Positions 2,326 to 8,269 of a stretch of DNA of 8,269 nucleotides are shown piece by piece; the stretch's first letter is position 1; the number at the start of each line of letters is the position of its first letter. Source of the stretch: Chloroflexota bacterium. Its GTDB lineage: Bacteria > Chloroflexota > Anaerolineae > Anaerolineales > Anaerolineaceae. Both the position numbers and the translations under genes were made by a program. Below the pieces are notes generated by a model. That model was not told the origin of the DNA. It ran no database searches and saw nothing but the letters and a program-made list of their open reading frames with translations. The DNA lies in contig JAJYJF010000079.1 of assembly GCA_021796375.1 (NCBI GenBank), positions 1 through 8,269 of the forward strand, written 5' to 3'.

Positions 2326-2829
2326 CTAATTCTCCGCCGGCTGGAGCTCCACCAGCAGAGCGCCCTTTTCCACCTGGGCGCCGGGCTGGATAGCCACCCG
2401 CGCCACCACCCCGCTCATCGGCGCGCGCAACTCCATCTGCATTTTCATAGATTCCTCGGTTACCAGCACCTGCCCTTTTTCGACCGCATCACCCGGCTGC
2501 ACCTTGACGGCAGCCACGAGGCCAGGCATGGGCGCCAGCAGCTGGTTTTCAGCCGCCGGCGCCGCCGCCCGGCGCTTGCCTGCGGCCGCCTGCCCGGACT
2601 CTACCTGGGCGATCACCCGCCGCCCTTCGGTGGTGACGGCATAGGTTTGCCCATCTTGCCGCTGCAGGTGAAGCACCCGGCTGGTACGCTCCCAGCACAG
2701 CAGGATCAGGTCGTTGGCGTTCAACTGGATGAGCCTGGCCTGCTGTTTGATCCCGTCGATGAAAAGCTGGTTTTCGGTGATATCTACCAGAAAGTTGCGG
2801 TTGCCGACCTGAACGTGGTAAATGGTCAT
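2326..2829 (-). CDS. Biotin carboxyl carrier protein subunit of acyl-CoA carboxylase
   Basis: The gene encodes 167 residues. The N-terminal half (about 1-78) is a beta-rich region of the kind found in acyl-CoA carboxylase alpha chains between the BC and BCCP domains. An Ala-rich linker (about 80-95) leads to a C-terminal biotinyl domain with APMPG (99-103) and EESMKMQ (125-131), where K129 is the lysine that would carry biotin. The usual motif is EAMKM; here it is ESMKM. Biotin on this arm is carboxylated by the BC subunit and then serves the CT subunit. The start at 2829 is chosen because GGGGAGGA lies just upstream and the preceding gene stops 13 nt earlier; extending the frame upstream would overlap that gene without a ribosome site. 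It is last in the operon. Confidence 0.9.
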   Translation of the reverse strand: MTIYHVQVGNRNFLVDITENQLFIDGIKQQARLIQLNANDLILLCWERTSRVLHLQRQDGQTYAVTTEGRRVIAQVESGQAAAGKRRAAAPAAENQLLAPMPGLVAAVKVQPGDAVEKGQVLVTEESMKMQMELRAPMSGVVARVAIQPGAQVEKGALLVELQPAEN

Positions 2830-2842
2830 GGGTCCTCCCCAA

Positions 2843-4330
2843 TCAATGGTGAATTTGCTCTCGCCAGGCGGCCAGCTTCCAGGCGTCCAGAGCCTGAGCG
2901 GGCCGGGACGGCCTCGGGTCAGGGGAACGGCGCTGGTGAGCGGCGAACGCGGTCGCGATGGCGATATCGCGGGCAAAGCTGTCGTCGTCCGCGCGGGCGG
3001 GCGGCTGGAACGTATCCAGAAAAGTGGTATCGACCCGGCCGGAGGTAAAGGCAGGACTGTCGATCACCTGAGACAGGAATTCGAGGTCGGTCGGGACGCC
3101 GCCGATCTGAAATTCCTGCAGGCTGCGGCGCAGCCTCGCGATCGCTGCCGGGCGGTCTGTTCCCCACGCGATCACCTTGGCGAGCAGCGAGTCGTAGTCC
3201 GCGGTCACCGGCATCCCCGGGTAAAGGGCGCTGTCGACGCGGATCCCCGGACCGCCCGGGACCTGCAGGTGCAGGATTGAGCCGGTCGCCGGGATGAATC
3301 CCTGGCCGGGATCCTCGGCCAGCACGCGCGCCTCGATGGCCCAGCCTCGCGGCTGCACGTCTGCCCGGGTGAAGGGCAGCGTTCCCTCCATGGCCAGCTG
3401 GAGCTGGGCCTGCACCAGGTCCAGCCCATTCACCATCTCGGTGACCGGATGCTCCACCTGGATGCGCGGGTTGATCTCGATAAAATGGAGCTGGCCGTCT
3501 TTCCCCAGGAGGAACTCCACCGTGCCCAGGCTCCGGTAGTGCAGCGCCCGAGCCAGCCGGGTGGCGTGATCGAAAAGCAGCTCGCGCAGGGAGCTGTTCA
3601 TCCCAAACGCGGGGGATTCCTCGATGAGCTTCTGCCGCCGGCGCTGGATGGAGCATTCGCGCTCGCCCAGGCAGAGGATGTTGCCCCGCCCGTCGGCGAG
3701 GACCTGCACCTCGATGTGGCGCGCGTTCTGCACCAGCGGCTCGAGGTAAACCGAACCGTCCCCGAAGGCCGCCAGGGCTTCCTGCCGGGCGGCGGAGACC
3801 ATCTGGTCGAGCTCCTGGGGCGAGTGGGCCAGGCGGATCCCCCGACCCCCGCCGCCGGCGATGGCTTTGACCAACACCGGGAAATGAATTTCCGCACCCA
3901 GGATTTCCTGGGTATCCTCCCCGAGGGGTACATCCGGGCCGGGGAGGATCGGCAGCCCGGCTTCCCGGGCGGCTTTCCGCGCGGCCAGCTTGTCGCCGGT
4001 CAGGGCCAGCGTCTCGGGCGAGGGGCCGAGGAACACCAATCCGGCCTCTTCGACGGCCCGGCAGAAATCGGCGTTCTCGGAGAGGAAGCCGTAGCCGGGA
4101 TGCACCGCCTGGGCGCCGGTCTTGTGCGCCGCCTGGAGGATGGCCGGGATATTCAGGTAGCTCTGCGAAGCGGGCGCCGGCCCGATCAAGACGGCCTCAT
4201 CCGCTGAATGCGTGTGCAGCGCTTCCCGGTCGGGCTCGGAGTACACGGCCACGGTCGGCAGTCCCATCTCGCGGCAGGCGCGCAGAATGCGGATTGCGAT
4301 CTCCCCCCGGTTGGCGACGAGCACTTTCAT
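2843..4330 (-). CDS. accC: Biotin carboxylase subunit of acetyl/propionyl-CoA carboxylase
   Basis: At 495 residues it is a stand-alone biotin carboxylase, which uses ATP and bicarbonate to carboxylate biotin on the carrier protein. The N-terminal domain opens with MKVLVANRGEIAIRILRACR and contains HPGYGFLSENADF (77-89). The ATP-grasp domain has the glycine-rich loop KAIAGGGGRGIR (155-166), GERECSIQRRRQKLIEESPA (222-241) and the metal/bicarbonate site EINPRIQVEHPVTE (285-298), with E285, N287, R289 and E293 in place. AIEARVLAEDP (331-341) is the conserved C-terminal domain motif. About 50 residues beyond the usual 450-residue AccC form a hydrophilic tail, as seen in acyl-CoA carboxylase alpha chains that have lost their carrier domain. 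The ATG has GGGAG 8-9 nt upstream and follows the CT gene by 17 nt. All expected catalytic residues are visible. Confidence 0.95.
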   Translation of the reverse strand: MKVLVANRGEIAIRILRACREMGLPTVAVYSEPDREALHTHSADEAVLIGPAPASQSYLNIPAILQAAHKTGAQAVHPGYGFLSENADFCRAVEEAGLVFLGPSPETLALTGDKLAARKAAREAGLPILPGPDVPLGEDTQEILGAEIHFPVLVKAIAGGGGRGIRLAHSPQELDQMVSAARQEALAAFGDGSVYLEPLVQNARHIEVQVLADGRGNILCLGERECSIQRRRQKLIEESPAFGMNSSLRELLFDHATRLARALHYRSLGTVEFLLGKDGQLHFIEINPRIQVEHPVTEMVNGLDLVQAQLQLAMEGTLPFTRADVQPRGWAIEARVLAEDPGQGFIPATGSILHLQVPGGPGIRVDSALYPGMPVTADYDSLLAKVIAWGTDRPAAIARLRRSLQEFQIGGVPTDLEFLSQVIDSPAFTSGRVDTTFLDTFQPPARADDDSFARDIAIATAFAAHQRRSPDPRPSRPAQALDAWKLAAWREQIHH

Positions 4331-4347
4331 ATTTCTGGCTCCCTTCG

Positions 4348-5886
4348 CTAAAGCGGGATATTCCCGTGCTTGCGCTGCGGCGCGGGCTGGCGCTTGGCCT
4401 GCACGCTCTCCAGCGCGTCGATCAGCCGGCCGCGGGCGGCGGCGGGTGCGATCACATCGTCCAGATAGCCGCGGCTCGCGGCGATGTAGGGGTTGGCCAG
4501 CTGCTCCCGGTAGCGGCGGGTCAGCTCCTGGGTTTTGGCGGCCGGGTCTTCGGCGGCGGCGATCGCCTTGCGGTGGAGGATCTGGACCGCCCCTTCCGGG
4601 CCCATCACGGCGATCTCCGCCGCGGGCAGCGCCAGGTTGACGTCTCCACCCAGGTGTTTGGAGCTCATGACGATGTAAGCCCCACCGTAGGCTTTGCGCA
4701 GGATCAGCGACAGCTTCGGGACCGAAGCTTCAGCGTAGGCGTAGATCATCTTCGCCCCGTGGCGGATCACGCCGCCGTGCTCCTGATCTACCCCGGGTAA
4801 AAACCCGGGCGTATCGACCAGGGTCACCAGCGGGATGTGAAAGGCGTCACAGAACCGGATAAAGCGGGCAGCCTTGTCCGAGGCATCGATATCCAGTACG
4901 CCGGCAAGAAAATCCGGCTGGTTGGCAACCACCCCGATCGGGCTGCCGTTGAGGCGGGCGAACCCGATCACCAGGTTGCGGGCAAACTCGGGTTGAATTT
5001 CCAGAAAATCGCCTTCGTCGCACAGGGCGCCGATCACCTGGTGAACGTCGTACGGTTTGTTCGGCTCCTGGGGGATGATCTCGCCCAGCTCGGGGGTTTC
5101 GCGGGCGCCGTCGCGGGGCGGGAGGTAGGGAGGCTGATCCAGGTTATTGGAGGGCAAGAACGAAAGCACCCGGTGCACCTGGGCGAGCAGGCTGTCTTCG
5201 TCCGGCGCGGTAAAATGCGCCACCCCGCTGAGCGCCCGGTGCGCCCAGGCGCCGCCCAGTGAATCGGCATCGACTTCTTCGTGGGTGACCGATTTTACCA
5301 CGTCCGGGCCGGTGATGAACATGTAGGATGTTTTTTCGACCATGAAGACGAAATCGGTGATGGCGGGTGAGTAAACCGCCCCACCGGCGCAGGGCCCCAG
5401 GATCACCGACAGCTGGGGGATAACCCCAGACGCGCGCGTGTTGCGCAGAAAAATCTCTCCATACGCGGCCAGCGCGTCGACACCTTCCTGGATACGCGCG
5501 CCGCCCGAATCGTTCAGCCCGATCAGCGGCGCTCCGTTCTGAAGCGCCAGGTCCATCACTTTGGCGATTTTCCGGCCATGGCTTTCGCCCACGGATCCGC
5601 CCAAAATGGTGAAATCCTGGGCGAAAAGAAACACCTGCCGGCCGTCGATTTTTCCCCAACCGGTGATCACGCCATCGGTGAGCGGCCGGGAAGGATCTGC
5701 TTCGGTGCTGCTTCCGCGCGCGGAAACAAACCGGTCCAGCTCGGTAAAAGTGCCCGCATCGAGCAGCGCCGCGATGCGCTCGCGGGCAGTTCGCTTTCCT
5801 TTCTGGTGCTGCTTCGCCGCCTGGTCTTCCCCCCCGCCGGCGAGAGCTGCAGCCTGCATCCGATCGAAATCTGTCAGATCAACCAT
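4348..5886 (-). CDS. Acyl-CoA carboxylase carboxyltransferase (beta) subunit, PccB/MmdA type
   Basis: This 512-residue protein has the two fused crotonase-like halves of PccB/AccD5-type carboxyltransferases, which move CO2 from carboxybiotin to an acyl-CoA. The N-half shows KRTARERI (31-38), NDSGGARIQEG (125-135) with the first oxyanion-hole glycines, and GPCAGGAVYSPAITDFVFMV (164-183). The C-half shows DTPGFLPGVDQEHGG (358-372), YGGAYIVMSSKHLGGD (400-415) with the second oxyanion hole, and AEIAVMGPEGAV (423-434). In the related PccB family the residue at position 405 sets acyl specificity: Asp favours propionyl-CoA and Ile allows acetyl-CoA. Here it is Ile, so acetyl- or mixed specificity is inferred. 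The ATG has AGGTGA 6 nt upstream. It is first in the operon; the presence of an ATP-dependent BC subunit argues against a decarboxylase role. Confidence 0.93.
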   Translation of the reverse strand: MVDLTDFDRMQAAALAGGGEDQAAKQHQKGKRTARERIAALLDAGTFTELDRFVSARGSSTEADPSRPLTDGVITGWGKIDGRQVFLFAQDFTILGGSVGESHGRKIAKVMDLALQNGAPLIGLNDSGGARIQEGVDALAAYGEIFLRNTRASGVIPQLSVILGPCAGGAVYSPAITDFVFMVEKTSYMFITGPDVVKSVTHEEVDADSLGGAWAHRALSGVAHFTAPDEDSLLAQVHRVLSFLPSNNLDQPPYLPPRDGARETPELGEIIPQEPNKPYDVHQVIGALCDEGDFLEIQPEFARNLVIGFARLNGSPIGVVANQPDFLAGVLDIDASDKAARFIRFCDAFHIPLVTLVDTPGFLPGVDQEHGGVIRHGAKMIYAYAEASVPKLSLILRKAYGGAYIVMSSKHLGGDVNLALPAAEIAVMGPEGAVQILHRKAIAAAEDPAAKTQELTRRYREQLANPYIAASRGYLDDVIAPAAARGRLIDALESVQAKRQPAPQRKHGNIPL

Positions 5887-6199: not shown

Positions 6200-6213
6200 T
6201 TTTCTACGAAAAT

Positions 6214-6217
6214 GGAG
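6214..6217 (+). promoter_or_regulatory. Ribosome binding site that decides the kaiC start
   Basis: GGAG (6214-6217) lies 9 nt before the ATG at 6227. An earlier in-frame ATG at 6212 has no purine-rich site upstream and itself overlaps this GGAG, so 6227 is preferred. The alternative would add only five residues (MEQKS). Confidence 0.6.
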
Positions 6218-6226
6218 CAAAAATCC

Positions 6227-7273
6227 ATGGAAAAGCCCCCATCAGCGGAACTGGCGGATAAAACCCTCCCAAAAAGCCCGACCGGGATCCAGGGATTGGA
6301 TCAGATTGTCAACGGAGGTCTCCCAAAGGGACGCACAACGCTGGTTTGCGGCGGCCCGGGCTGCGGGAAAACGCTCCTGGCGGTCGAGTTCTTGATCCGC
6401 GGCGCGGAGCAGTTCGGCGAGCCGGGGGTCTTCATGGCCTTCGAGGAAACCCAGGAAGACCTTTCCAAGAACGTGGCCTCACTGGGGATCGACCTGCAAG
6501 ACCTGATCGACCGGCAAAAAATCTTCGTCGATTACGTGTACCTGGAGCCCTCCGAGATCGAGGAGACGGGTGAATATGACCTGGAAGGGCTGTTCATCCG
6601 GCTGGGATCGGCGATCGACGCCATCGGCGCAAAACGGGTGGTGCTGGATACGATCGAATCGATCTTTTCCGGGTTCGGCAACGAAGGCATCCTGCGCGCG
6701 GAGGTCCGCCGGTTGTTCCGCTGGCTGAAAGAAAAAGGGGTCACGGCGATCGTGACCGGCGAGCGCGGAGAAAAATCGCTCACCCGCTACGGCCTCGAGG
6801 AATACGTTTCCGACTGCGTCATCCTGCTGGAGAACCGCATGGTGAACAAGATCGCGAACCGCATCCTCCAGGTGGTTAAATACCGCGGCTCGGCGCATGG
6901 GACGGACGAGTATCCATTCTTGATCGGGAAGGAGGGGCTGTGGGTTCAGCCGATCACCTCCATTGGGCTGAATTACCCGGTATCCAGCCAGCGCGTCCCG
7001 ACCGGCATCCCCGCGCTGGACGACATGCTCGGCGGGAAAGGTTATTTCCGCGGGTCGAGCGTGCTGATTTCTGGCACGGCGGGGACCGGGAAAACCAGCC
7101 TGGCGGCCAGCTTTGTGGATGCGGCCTGCCGGCGCGGCGAGCGCAGCCTGTTCTTTGCCTTTGAGGAATCAACCGCCCAGATCCTGCGGAACATGAGATC
7201 GATTGGATTGGACCTGCAGGGGTGGATAGACCAGGGACTGCTGCAGTTCCATGCGGCGCGGCCTTCTCTCTAA
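6227..7273 (+). CDS. kaiC: KaiC-like circadian clock ATPase, N-terminal fragment (CI domain plus start of CII)
   Basis: The 348 residues before the in-frame TAA cover the whole first RecA-like domain of KaiC and the first third of the second. CI has SPTGIQGLD (17-25), Walker A GGPGCGKT (42-49), catalytic Glu pair E73-E74 in FMAFEETQED, and Walker B KRVVLDT with D141. CII starts at about 258 with VPTGIPALDDMLGG and has Walker A GTAGTGKT (283-290) and Glu pair E313-E314 in FFAFEES. It ends in FHAARPSL just where homologues continue YGLEMHL. In the Kai system CI is the slow ATPase and the KaiB docking domain, and CII is the autokinase. As a separate product this would keep a complete CI but only a partial CII lacking Walker B and the phosphosites. 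See the entry for the whole locus. Confidence 0.85.
   Translation: MEKPPSAELADKTLPKSPTGIQGLDQIVNGGLPKGRTTLVCGGPGCGKTLLAVEFLIRGAEQFGEPGVFMAFEETQEDLSKNVASLGIDLQDLIDRQKIFVDYVYLEPSEIEETGEYDLEGLFIRLGSAIDAIGAKRVVLDTIESIFSGFGNEGILRAEVRRLFRWLKEKGVTAIVTGERGEKSLTRYGLEEYVSDCVILLENRMVNKIANRILQVVKYRGSAHGTDEYPFLIGKEGLWVQPITSIGLNYPVSSQRVPTGIPALDDMLGGKGYFRGSSVLISGTAGTGKTSLAASFVDAACRRGERSLFFAFEESTAQILRNMRSIGLDLQGWIDQGLLQFHAARPSL
7271..7273 (+). other. In-frame TAA inside kaiC
   Basis: The codons run CCT TCT CTC TAA GGG ATC GAA ATG, giving P-S-L-stop-G-I-E-M. Related bacterial KaiC proteins read PSLYGLEM, so TAT or TAC has become TAA by one base. Frame is unchanged on both sides. Other genes here (the CtaG, CT and BCCP proteins) stop normally and kaiC itself ends in TAA at 7946-7948, so reassignment of TAA is unlikely. 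Confidence 0.9.
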
Positions 7274-7276
7274 GGG
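7272..7276 (+). promoter_or_regulatory. Ribosome-binding-like AAGGG at the internal kaiC stop
   Basis: AAGGG (7272-7276) lies 6 nt before the ATG at 7283. The two A bases belong to the premature stop codon, so the change that broke kaiC also improved a possible internal start. Translation could restart here after termination. Confidence 0.4.
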
Positions 7277-7282
7277 ATCGAA

Positions 7283-7948
7283 ATGCACCTGCTGACCCTG
7301 CAAAAAACCATCGAGGAGTACCGGCCAGAGATTGTGGTGATCGACCCGCTAACCAACCTGACGTCGATCGGCAGCAGCCTGGAGGTGAAATCCATGCTGA
7401 CCCGCCTGATCGATTTCCTGAAAATGAAACAGGTGACGGCGATCTTCACCAGCCTCACCAACGGCTCGGACACGGAGATCAGCGCCGAGGTGGGTATCTC
7501 CTCCCTCATGGATACCTGGCTCCTGGTGCGCAACATGGAGACGGGCAGCGAGCGCAACCGCGGGCTGTATGTCTTGAAATCCCGGGGAATGGCCCATTCC
7601 ACCCAGGTGCGCGAGTTCCGGCTGAGCGATCACGGTGTGGAGCTGGTTGACGTCTACGTGGGGCCCGAGGGGATTTTGACGGGTTCGGCGCGAACGGCTC
7701 AGGAAGGCCGGGAGAAAAGCCTGGCAGTAAAGCGGCAGGCTGAGGTCGAGCGCCACAAGCGGGAAATGGAACGCAACCGCAGCAGCCTGCAGGCGCAAAT
7801 ATCCGCGCTGCAGGCCGCGATCGAGCTGGAAGAAGAAAAATACCAATCCTTCCTGGCCGATGAGGACCGGGAACGCCAGCTGCAGGCCGGCGAGCGCGGG
7901 GCGCAGGTCCGGGCCCGGCAGCGCGGAACCCCCAATGGAGGGAATTAA
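7283..7948 (+). CDS. kaiC: KaiC-like C-terminal fragment (rest of CII plus coiled coil)
   Basis: These 221 residues continue KaiC directly after the in-frame TAA. They begin [20 protein letters not shown] with Walker B Asp at 21 (DPLTNL). The phosphosite region is [14 protein letters not shown] (65-78), with S73 and S74 aligned to the Ser/Thr pair that KaiC phosphorylates. [20 protein letters not shown] (99-118) and [14 protein letters not shown] (124-137) are typical of the end of CII. From about 138 to 205 the chain is a charged, Leu/Gln-rich helix that looks like a coiled coil, and it ends in a basic tail. Alone it lacks any P-loop and should not bind ATP as a KaiC domain does. It has an AAGGG site 6 nt upstream and overlaps the kaiB start by one base. 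Confidence 0.82.
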
Positions 7949-8269
7949 TGGACGCGTCTCTTGACCTCAGCCGGCGCGGGAACGGCGACGGACTGGATGT
8001 GGATGAGATCTGGGAGCTGCGCCTGTACGTTGCCGGCCAGACCCCCAAGTCGATCACGGCTTTTGCCAATCTGAAAGCCTTATGCGAAACGCATCTGGCG
8101 GGCAAGTACCGCATCGAGGTGATCGACCTGCTCGAAAACCCGACCCTGGCGCGCGGCGACCAGATCCTGGCGATCCCCACGCTGGTCCGCAAGCTGCCTG
8201 AACCGGTGAAAAAGATCATCGGCGATCTCTCCAATACCGAACGTGTGCTGGTCGGGCTGGACCTCCGGC
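7948..8269 (+). CDS. kaiB: KaiB circadian clock protein (C-terminus beyond right edge)
   Basis: The 107 visible residues are nearly the whole protein. After an extra N-terminal segment of about 20 residues come [20 protein letters not shown] (24-43), [20 protein letters not shown] (54-73), [20 protein letters not shown] (74-93) and [14 protein letters not shown] (94-107). These are the canonical KaiB motifs, including the proline-rich loop and the Gly and Asp of VGLDL (G103, D105) known to influence fold switching in KaiB. KaiB binds the KaiC CI domain in its fold-switched state and helps reset phosphorylation. The start ATG overlaps the kaiC stop as TAATG, with GGAGGG (7936-7941) 6 nt upstream, so the genes are translationally coupled. 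No stop is reached; cyanobacterial KaiB ends only some ten residues further. Confidence 0.94.

Follow-up and report, generated by a model that had tools for sequence, protein, structure and literature searches.

A premature in-frame stop codon, probably a recent nonsense mutation, in an otherwise intact bacterial kaiC gene

The kaiC gene described here is interrupted by an in-frame TAA at positions 7271-7273, which is codon 354 of its reading frame. The window, by which we mean the whole stretch of DNA that was analysed, is 8,269 bases long and makes up one entire contig (C53) of a draft genome; the draft comprises 2.57 Mb in 435 contigs and is 64% complete, so that a second kaiC may be absent from the assembly. 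The TAA probably arose by recent nonsense mutation of a kaiC that is otherwise intact and belongs to a predicted kaiC-kaiB-kaiB-histidine kinase operon; the mutation would be an ordinary one, perhaps confined to a strain. The stop, its reading frame, the intact gene of the nearest relative and the adjoining genes are observed, whereas we infer that the stop reflects true variation rather than an error, and what is said below about the product is to be read in the same way.

Interruption of the kaiC reading frame

The sequences on the two sides of the TAA match a single KaiC profile, NCBIfam PRK09302.1 (515 positions), in consecutive order: the 5' part covers profile positions 6-344 (E = 2.4e-158) and the 3' part covers positions 347-514 (E = 4.3e-53). 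We therefore consider them to be one gene in two pieces rather than a chance arrangement, and the alternative of two adjacent genes was rejected on the same ground. The family PF06745 was found in each piece, and the two tandem KaiC ATPase domains are present when the stop is read across and absent from the product as encoded. With the TAA in place, the window does not encode one uninterrupted KaiC polypeptide. No second stop was found in the kaiC frame between this codon and the usual end of the gene, a TAA at 7946-7948 that overlaps the start of kaiB. The third-position GC contents are alike, 0.78 on the 5' side of the stop and 0.80 on the 3' side. The initial annotation had described an in-frame TAA with KaiC on both sides and no second lesion, and both statements are borne out by the 224 open codons that follow the stop and by the order of the profile matches.

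The likelier start of the gene is the ATG at 6227, since it has a ribosome-binding site with GGAG and is the start used both in the database protein of the window (P0002) and in its nearest relative (P0003). Counted from this codon, the 5' part is 348 aa long, and counted from its first ATG (7283) the 3' part is 221 aa long. The Walker A motifs and the Glu pairs of both CI and CII are located 5' of the stop; the two serines aligned with phosphosites, the tail and the VVIDPL sequence, which we take to be the Walker B region of CII, are located 3' of it, and the stop itself falls inside the CII ATPase fold. The Walker and catalytic residues had been reported as kept, and reading across the stop we indeed found both Walker A motifs, both Glu pairs and the CII Walker B region in place (Table 1).

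Table 1. Coordinates of kaiC, kaiB and their features in the window
Feature	Position	Strand	Remarks
kaiC 5' open frame	6212..7273	+	353 aa from ATG 6212; whole CI and first part of CII
Likely true kaiC start, ATG	6227..6229	+	GGAG upstream; duplex -5.6 kcal/mol versus -0.1 for ATG 6212
CI Walker A, GGPGCGKT	6350..6373	+	
CI FEET, catalytic Glu pair	6440..6451	+	By alignment; role according to the available part of PMC10076222
CII Walker A, GTAGTGKT	7073..7096	+	
CII FEES, catalytic Glu pair	7160..7171	+	By alignment; role according to the available part of PMC10076222
kaiC 3' part, same frame	7274..7948	+	224 codons to the usual stop
In-frame ATG, possible but unremarkable restart	7283..7285	+	Met in 71 of 118 listed homologues
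VVIDPL	7334..7351	+	Missing from the shortened product
Two Ser aligned with R. sphaeroides KaiC Ser413/Ser414 phosphosites	7499..7504	+	Missing from the shortened product
C-terminal tail, aligned with the R. sphaeroides KaiC coiled-coil extension	7694..7945	+	Start approximate
kaiB	7948..8269	+	Start overlaps kaiC stop (TAATG); strong ribosome site; completed on contig C113
127 bp identical to one end of C113 (L113 6303-6429), same genome	8143..8269	+	

Comparison with characterized KaiC proteins

The closest solved structures are those of KaiC from Rhodobacter sphaeroides (PDB 8dba, 8fwi and 8db3). The proteins of 8dba and 8fwi were aligned through the C-terminal tail, the alignment covering residues 19-572 (E = 1.7e-194 for 8dba). 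The chain index of the PDB rows exceeds the published residue numbering by two, as judged from the phosphomimetic Glu-Glu pair of 8fwi, and Ser430 and Ser431 of the window protein, both 3' of the stop, align with the phosphosites of R. sphaeroides KaiC. According to the portion of the structural study that was available (PMC10076222), phosphorylation takes place on CII in that species, a coil joins two hexamers, KaiB binds the CI domain of KaiC in the post-hydrolysis state, and the system is a KaiA-independent hourglass timer rather than a true circadian oscillator. The window gene has in common with R. sphaeroides KaiC the two ATPase domains, the adjacent serines at the phosphosite and the C-terminal tail, and it adjoins a kaiB, a KaiB being the partner of the R. 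sphaeroides protein in the same portion of that study (PMC10076222). Unlike R. sphaeroides KaiC, it stops inside CII.

Two serines at the phosphosite have been reported for the cyanobacterial KaiC2, and KaiC3-like proteins are encoded by most non-cyanobacterial genera, as stated in the accessible text of Schmelling et al. 2017 (PMC5520375). The window KaiC is like KaiC2 in its two phosphosite serines and in its pairing with kaiB, a likeness of residues and not of position in a tree. A premature stop in another clock gene, sasA, is described for laboratory-evolved Synechococcus elongatus in the excerpted text of PMC12435244. In both cases one early stop interrupts a clock gene of a bacterium, and the cases differ in the gene affected and in that the sasA stop was shown by whole-genome sequencing and its phenotype was measured. 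No naturally split kaiC was found among the papers listed on nonsense, pseudogene, split or truncated kaiC.

Distribution of the stop among related sequences

Homologues were searched for with the 5' piece, which admits truncated as well as full-length proteins, and 120 of the 7,999 matches were listed. The nearest protein among them, P0003, is the sole close relative that was found; it is of full length, with 573 aa encoded on a 2,044-bp record, and is identical to the window read-through protein at 547 of the 573 positions. It has Tyr at window codon 354, and the cut in the window corresponds to its residue 349. None of the 118 other listed homologues has a stop at this position; their residues in this column are Y (48), A (25), F (17), H (9) and T (8), with V (5), S (4), N (1) and M (1) being rarer. 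Comparison of the orthologous codon in close relatives, as proposed in the initial annotation, thus yielded an intact gene with Tyr in the nearest protein and no stop in the others listed. The related claim that homologues have Tyr here is correct for P0003 but does not describe the column in general, which is variable.

We also screened 396 genomes of the class for KaiC and obtained 69 KaiC-like matches at E values of 1e-30 or better, 13 of which, the window included, contain an in-frame stop, and among the 69 only the window has its stop within the KaiC core. The 12 other stop-bearing matches (L045, L046, L055, L061, L062 and the seven L117-L123) were checked, and in 11 of them the stop is located at the C-terminal end of the match; L061 aligns without a stop up to residue 473, so that its stop lies after this residue. 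A total of 17 loci were inspected directly by alignment, and none of the stops in L040, L045, L046, L047, L055 and L062 comes before alignment index 461. Of the 147 genomes in the family, 5, including that of the window, had a match at an E value of 1e-60 or better. The loci L086 and L087 from the same family are 61-62% identical and no stop was reported for them, and none of the 60 relatives drawn is from the genus of the window. The cluster of the 221-aa 3' piece (P0122) consists of two member sequences from one contig, and the second member might be another separately called 3' piece.

Sequence constraint on the two sides of the stop

The window protein and P0003 differ at 25 aligned sites, 16 of them before the stop and 9 after it. 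When the residue that is less common among the 118 listed homologues is counted as derived, the window is derived at 3 sites in the 5' part and 2 in the 3' part and P0003 at 13 and 6, respectively, with one tie. Among the sites with a conservation of at least 95%, the window departs from the conserved residue at 2 of 152 in the 5' part, both in common with P0003, and at 0 of 34 in the 3' part. No decay or relaxed constraint was seen 3' of the stop in these comparisons with P0003 and the 118 listed homologues. An old, decayed pseudogene was rejected, since there is no second stop and none of the 34 conserved 3' sites is broken. The lack of decay in the 3' part suggests that the stop is either recent or not real, the numbers of sites being small.

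The kaiB genes and the adjoining contig

The initial annotation had referred to a healthy downstream kaiB. Its frame is open, but it runs off the window, and the last 5 codons are supplied by another contig of the same genome, C113. The 127-bp end overlap of the two contigs lies inside kaiB and has no third match in the genome; the first 127 bases of the window have no partner there. An exact contig overlap of 127 bp is what adjacent nodes of a de Bruijn graph with k = 127 would show, and C53 and C113 presumably are such nodes. After kaiB, contig C113 contains a second kaiB (120 aa) and a gene for a 934-aa PAS-HisKA_3-HATPase protein. A row of kaiC-kaiB-kaiB-histidine kinase is thus present, in which the 127-bp overlap provides the link between the contigs and the operon is predicted. 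Since kaiB, the second kaiB and the kinase are open, only kaiC is damaged in an otherwise whole gene row. Beyond the kinase, C113 carries genes for zinc dehydrogenase-like and glucodextranase/GH15-like proteins.

The arrangement was compared by tblastn with 16 related loci from the genome search, which have flanks of only about 1.5 kb. A kaiB adjoins kaiC in all 16 (in L047 as a fragment that runs into the end of the contig), a second kaiB was found in 11 and a match to the kinase in 15, the latter being weaker in L037-L039.

Placement of the contig in the wrong genome was considered and rejected. The window AccC is 57-64% identical to its counterparts in 8 of 24 genomes of the same family and 44-58% identical to those in other families of the order. 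These identities favour the same family and indicate that the contig fits its genome, although the placement is not clean: 16 of the 24 same-family genomes gave no AccC match at an E value of 1e-100, and one genome from another family reaches 58%. A scan of the genome's own contigs gave 3 loci.

Explanations for the stop

A consensus or assembly error, with kaiC intact in the cells and the stop being a wrong base or a result of mixed strain paths, is unlikely, albeit far from negligible. The short contigs of this fragmented and incomplete draft speak in its favour, as do the intact 3' frame and the end of the contig inside kaiB with an exact overlap to another contig, since a mixture of strains can cause a graph break at such a contig end. 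The same overlap, on the other hand, suggests a short-read de Bruijn assembly, in which an isolated base error needs several reads, and no in-frame stop was found in the other tested genes of the 8.3-kb window. As a rough control, we scanned 20 further contigs for same-frame splits (about 216 kb, or 224,176 bases with the window) and found no other clear nonsense split in these segments of the same genome, which also argues against an error. The scan returned 16 same-frame pairs in the 21 contigs, under a strict rule that would itself miss kaiC, as one of four test stretches is not the best frame. A Pfam search of 15 of the pairs (all but the L076 pair) identified none with one family running across the stop; for 4 of the 15 one piece had no family match, so that these four might still be split genes.

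It is improbable that the split is functional, with one chain of CI plus part of CII ending at the TAA and a second, 221-aa chain restarting at ATG 7283 and assembling with it. The TAA does overlap a TAAGG located 7 nt before this ATG, the duplex energy of -5.2 kcal/mol is close to the -5.6 kcal/mol at the likely start, and 9 among the 120 listed short C-half proteins, the window's included, begin at this Met. However, 7 of the 17 other ATGs within kaiC pair equally well or better (spacing not weighed), for which reason a restart site under selection was rejected. Of the 8 other proteins that start at this Met, one is on a contig of 24.5 kb, whereas the other 7 come from contigs of 1.1 to 4.1 kb and may be fragments; a gene caller might pick this Met wherever the upstream part is missing. 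Moreover, the break is inside one ATPase fold, no other KaiC match examined is cut there, and among the 120 listed N-half matches only the window's own protein is near 350 aa in size. A timer gene in two pieces, in which a CI ring that binds KaiB and a kinase half-domain made separately with the coiled-coil tail would gate the clock through their assembly and not through phosphorylation alone, is more improbable still. Recoding or suppression, by which the TAA would be decoded as an amino acid to give full-length KaiC, would account for the conserved 3' frame, but is hardly credible and was rejected. We tallied 148 long non-overlapping frames in the 21 contigs, 9 of which run off the contig, and the other 139 end with TGA (57), TAA (47) or TAG (35), TAA also being the usual stop of kaiC itself; no tRNA with the anticodon tta, as in an ochre suppressor, was present among the 20 tRNAs found in the incomplete genome. 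Of the four explanations first put forward, a recent loss and a strain polymorphism fit the data, because the close relative is intact and the 3' part has not decayed; a consensus error retains a minor share, and the functional split has little in its favour.

Predicted consequences of the nonsense allele

A recent nonsense mutation, our preferred explanation, would remove the kinase half of KaiC. The product, of about 348 aa, would retain the ATPase of CI, which in R. sphaeroides is the KaiB-binding domain. Missing from it would be the Walker B region of CII, the two phosphorylation sites and the coiled-coil tail, such that the cell would be left without a phosphorylation timer. KaiB has a strong ribosome site to itself; it could still be produced and, provided that the truncated KaiC is stable, might bind to CI.

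Should the stop be real, this kaiC is a naturally occurring allele by which a KaiB/KaiC clock was lost, seen at a stage when decay has not yet set in and kaiB, the second kaiB and the kinase next to it are intact; the value of such timers in nature could then be learned by comparing strains that carry the allele with strains that lack it. An error, on the other hand, would call for caution in clock surveys that are built on draft genomes.

Other genes in the window

On the minus strand, genes for a biotin carrier, a biotin carboxylase and a carboxyl transferase are located side by side at 2326-5886 and constitute an acyl-CoA carboxylase set. Contig C39 carries another biotin carboxylase, which is 49% identical to that of the window. 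CtaG-like and SCO1-like genes for cytochrome oxidase assembly are located at 553-2086, also on the minus strand. The SCO1-like gene and the biotin carrier gene are separated by a short gap, which contains an inverted repeat (2255-2304) with two 22-nt arms that are 86% complementary and 6 nt apart, possibly a terminator.
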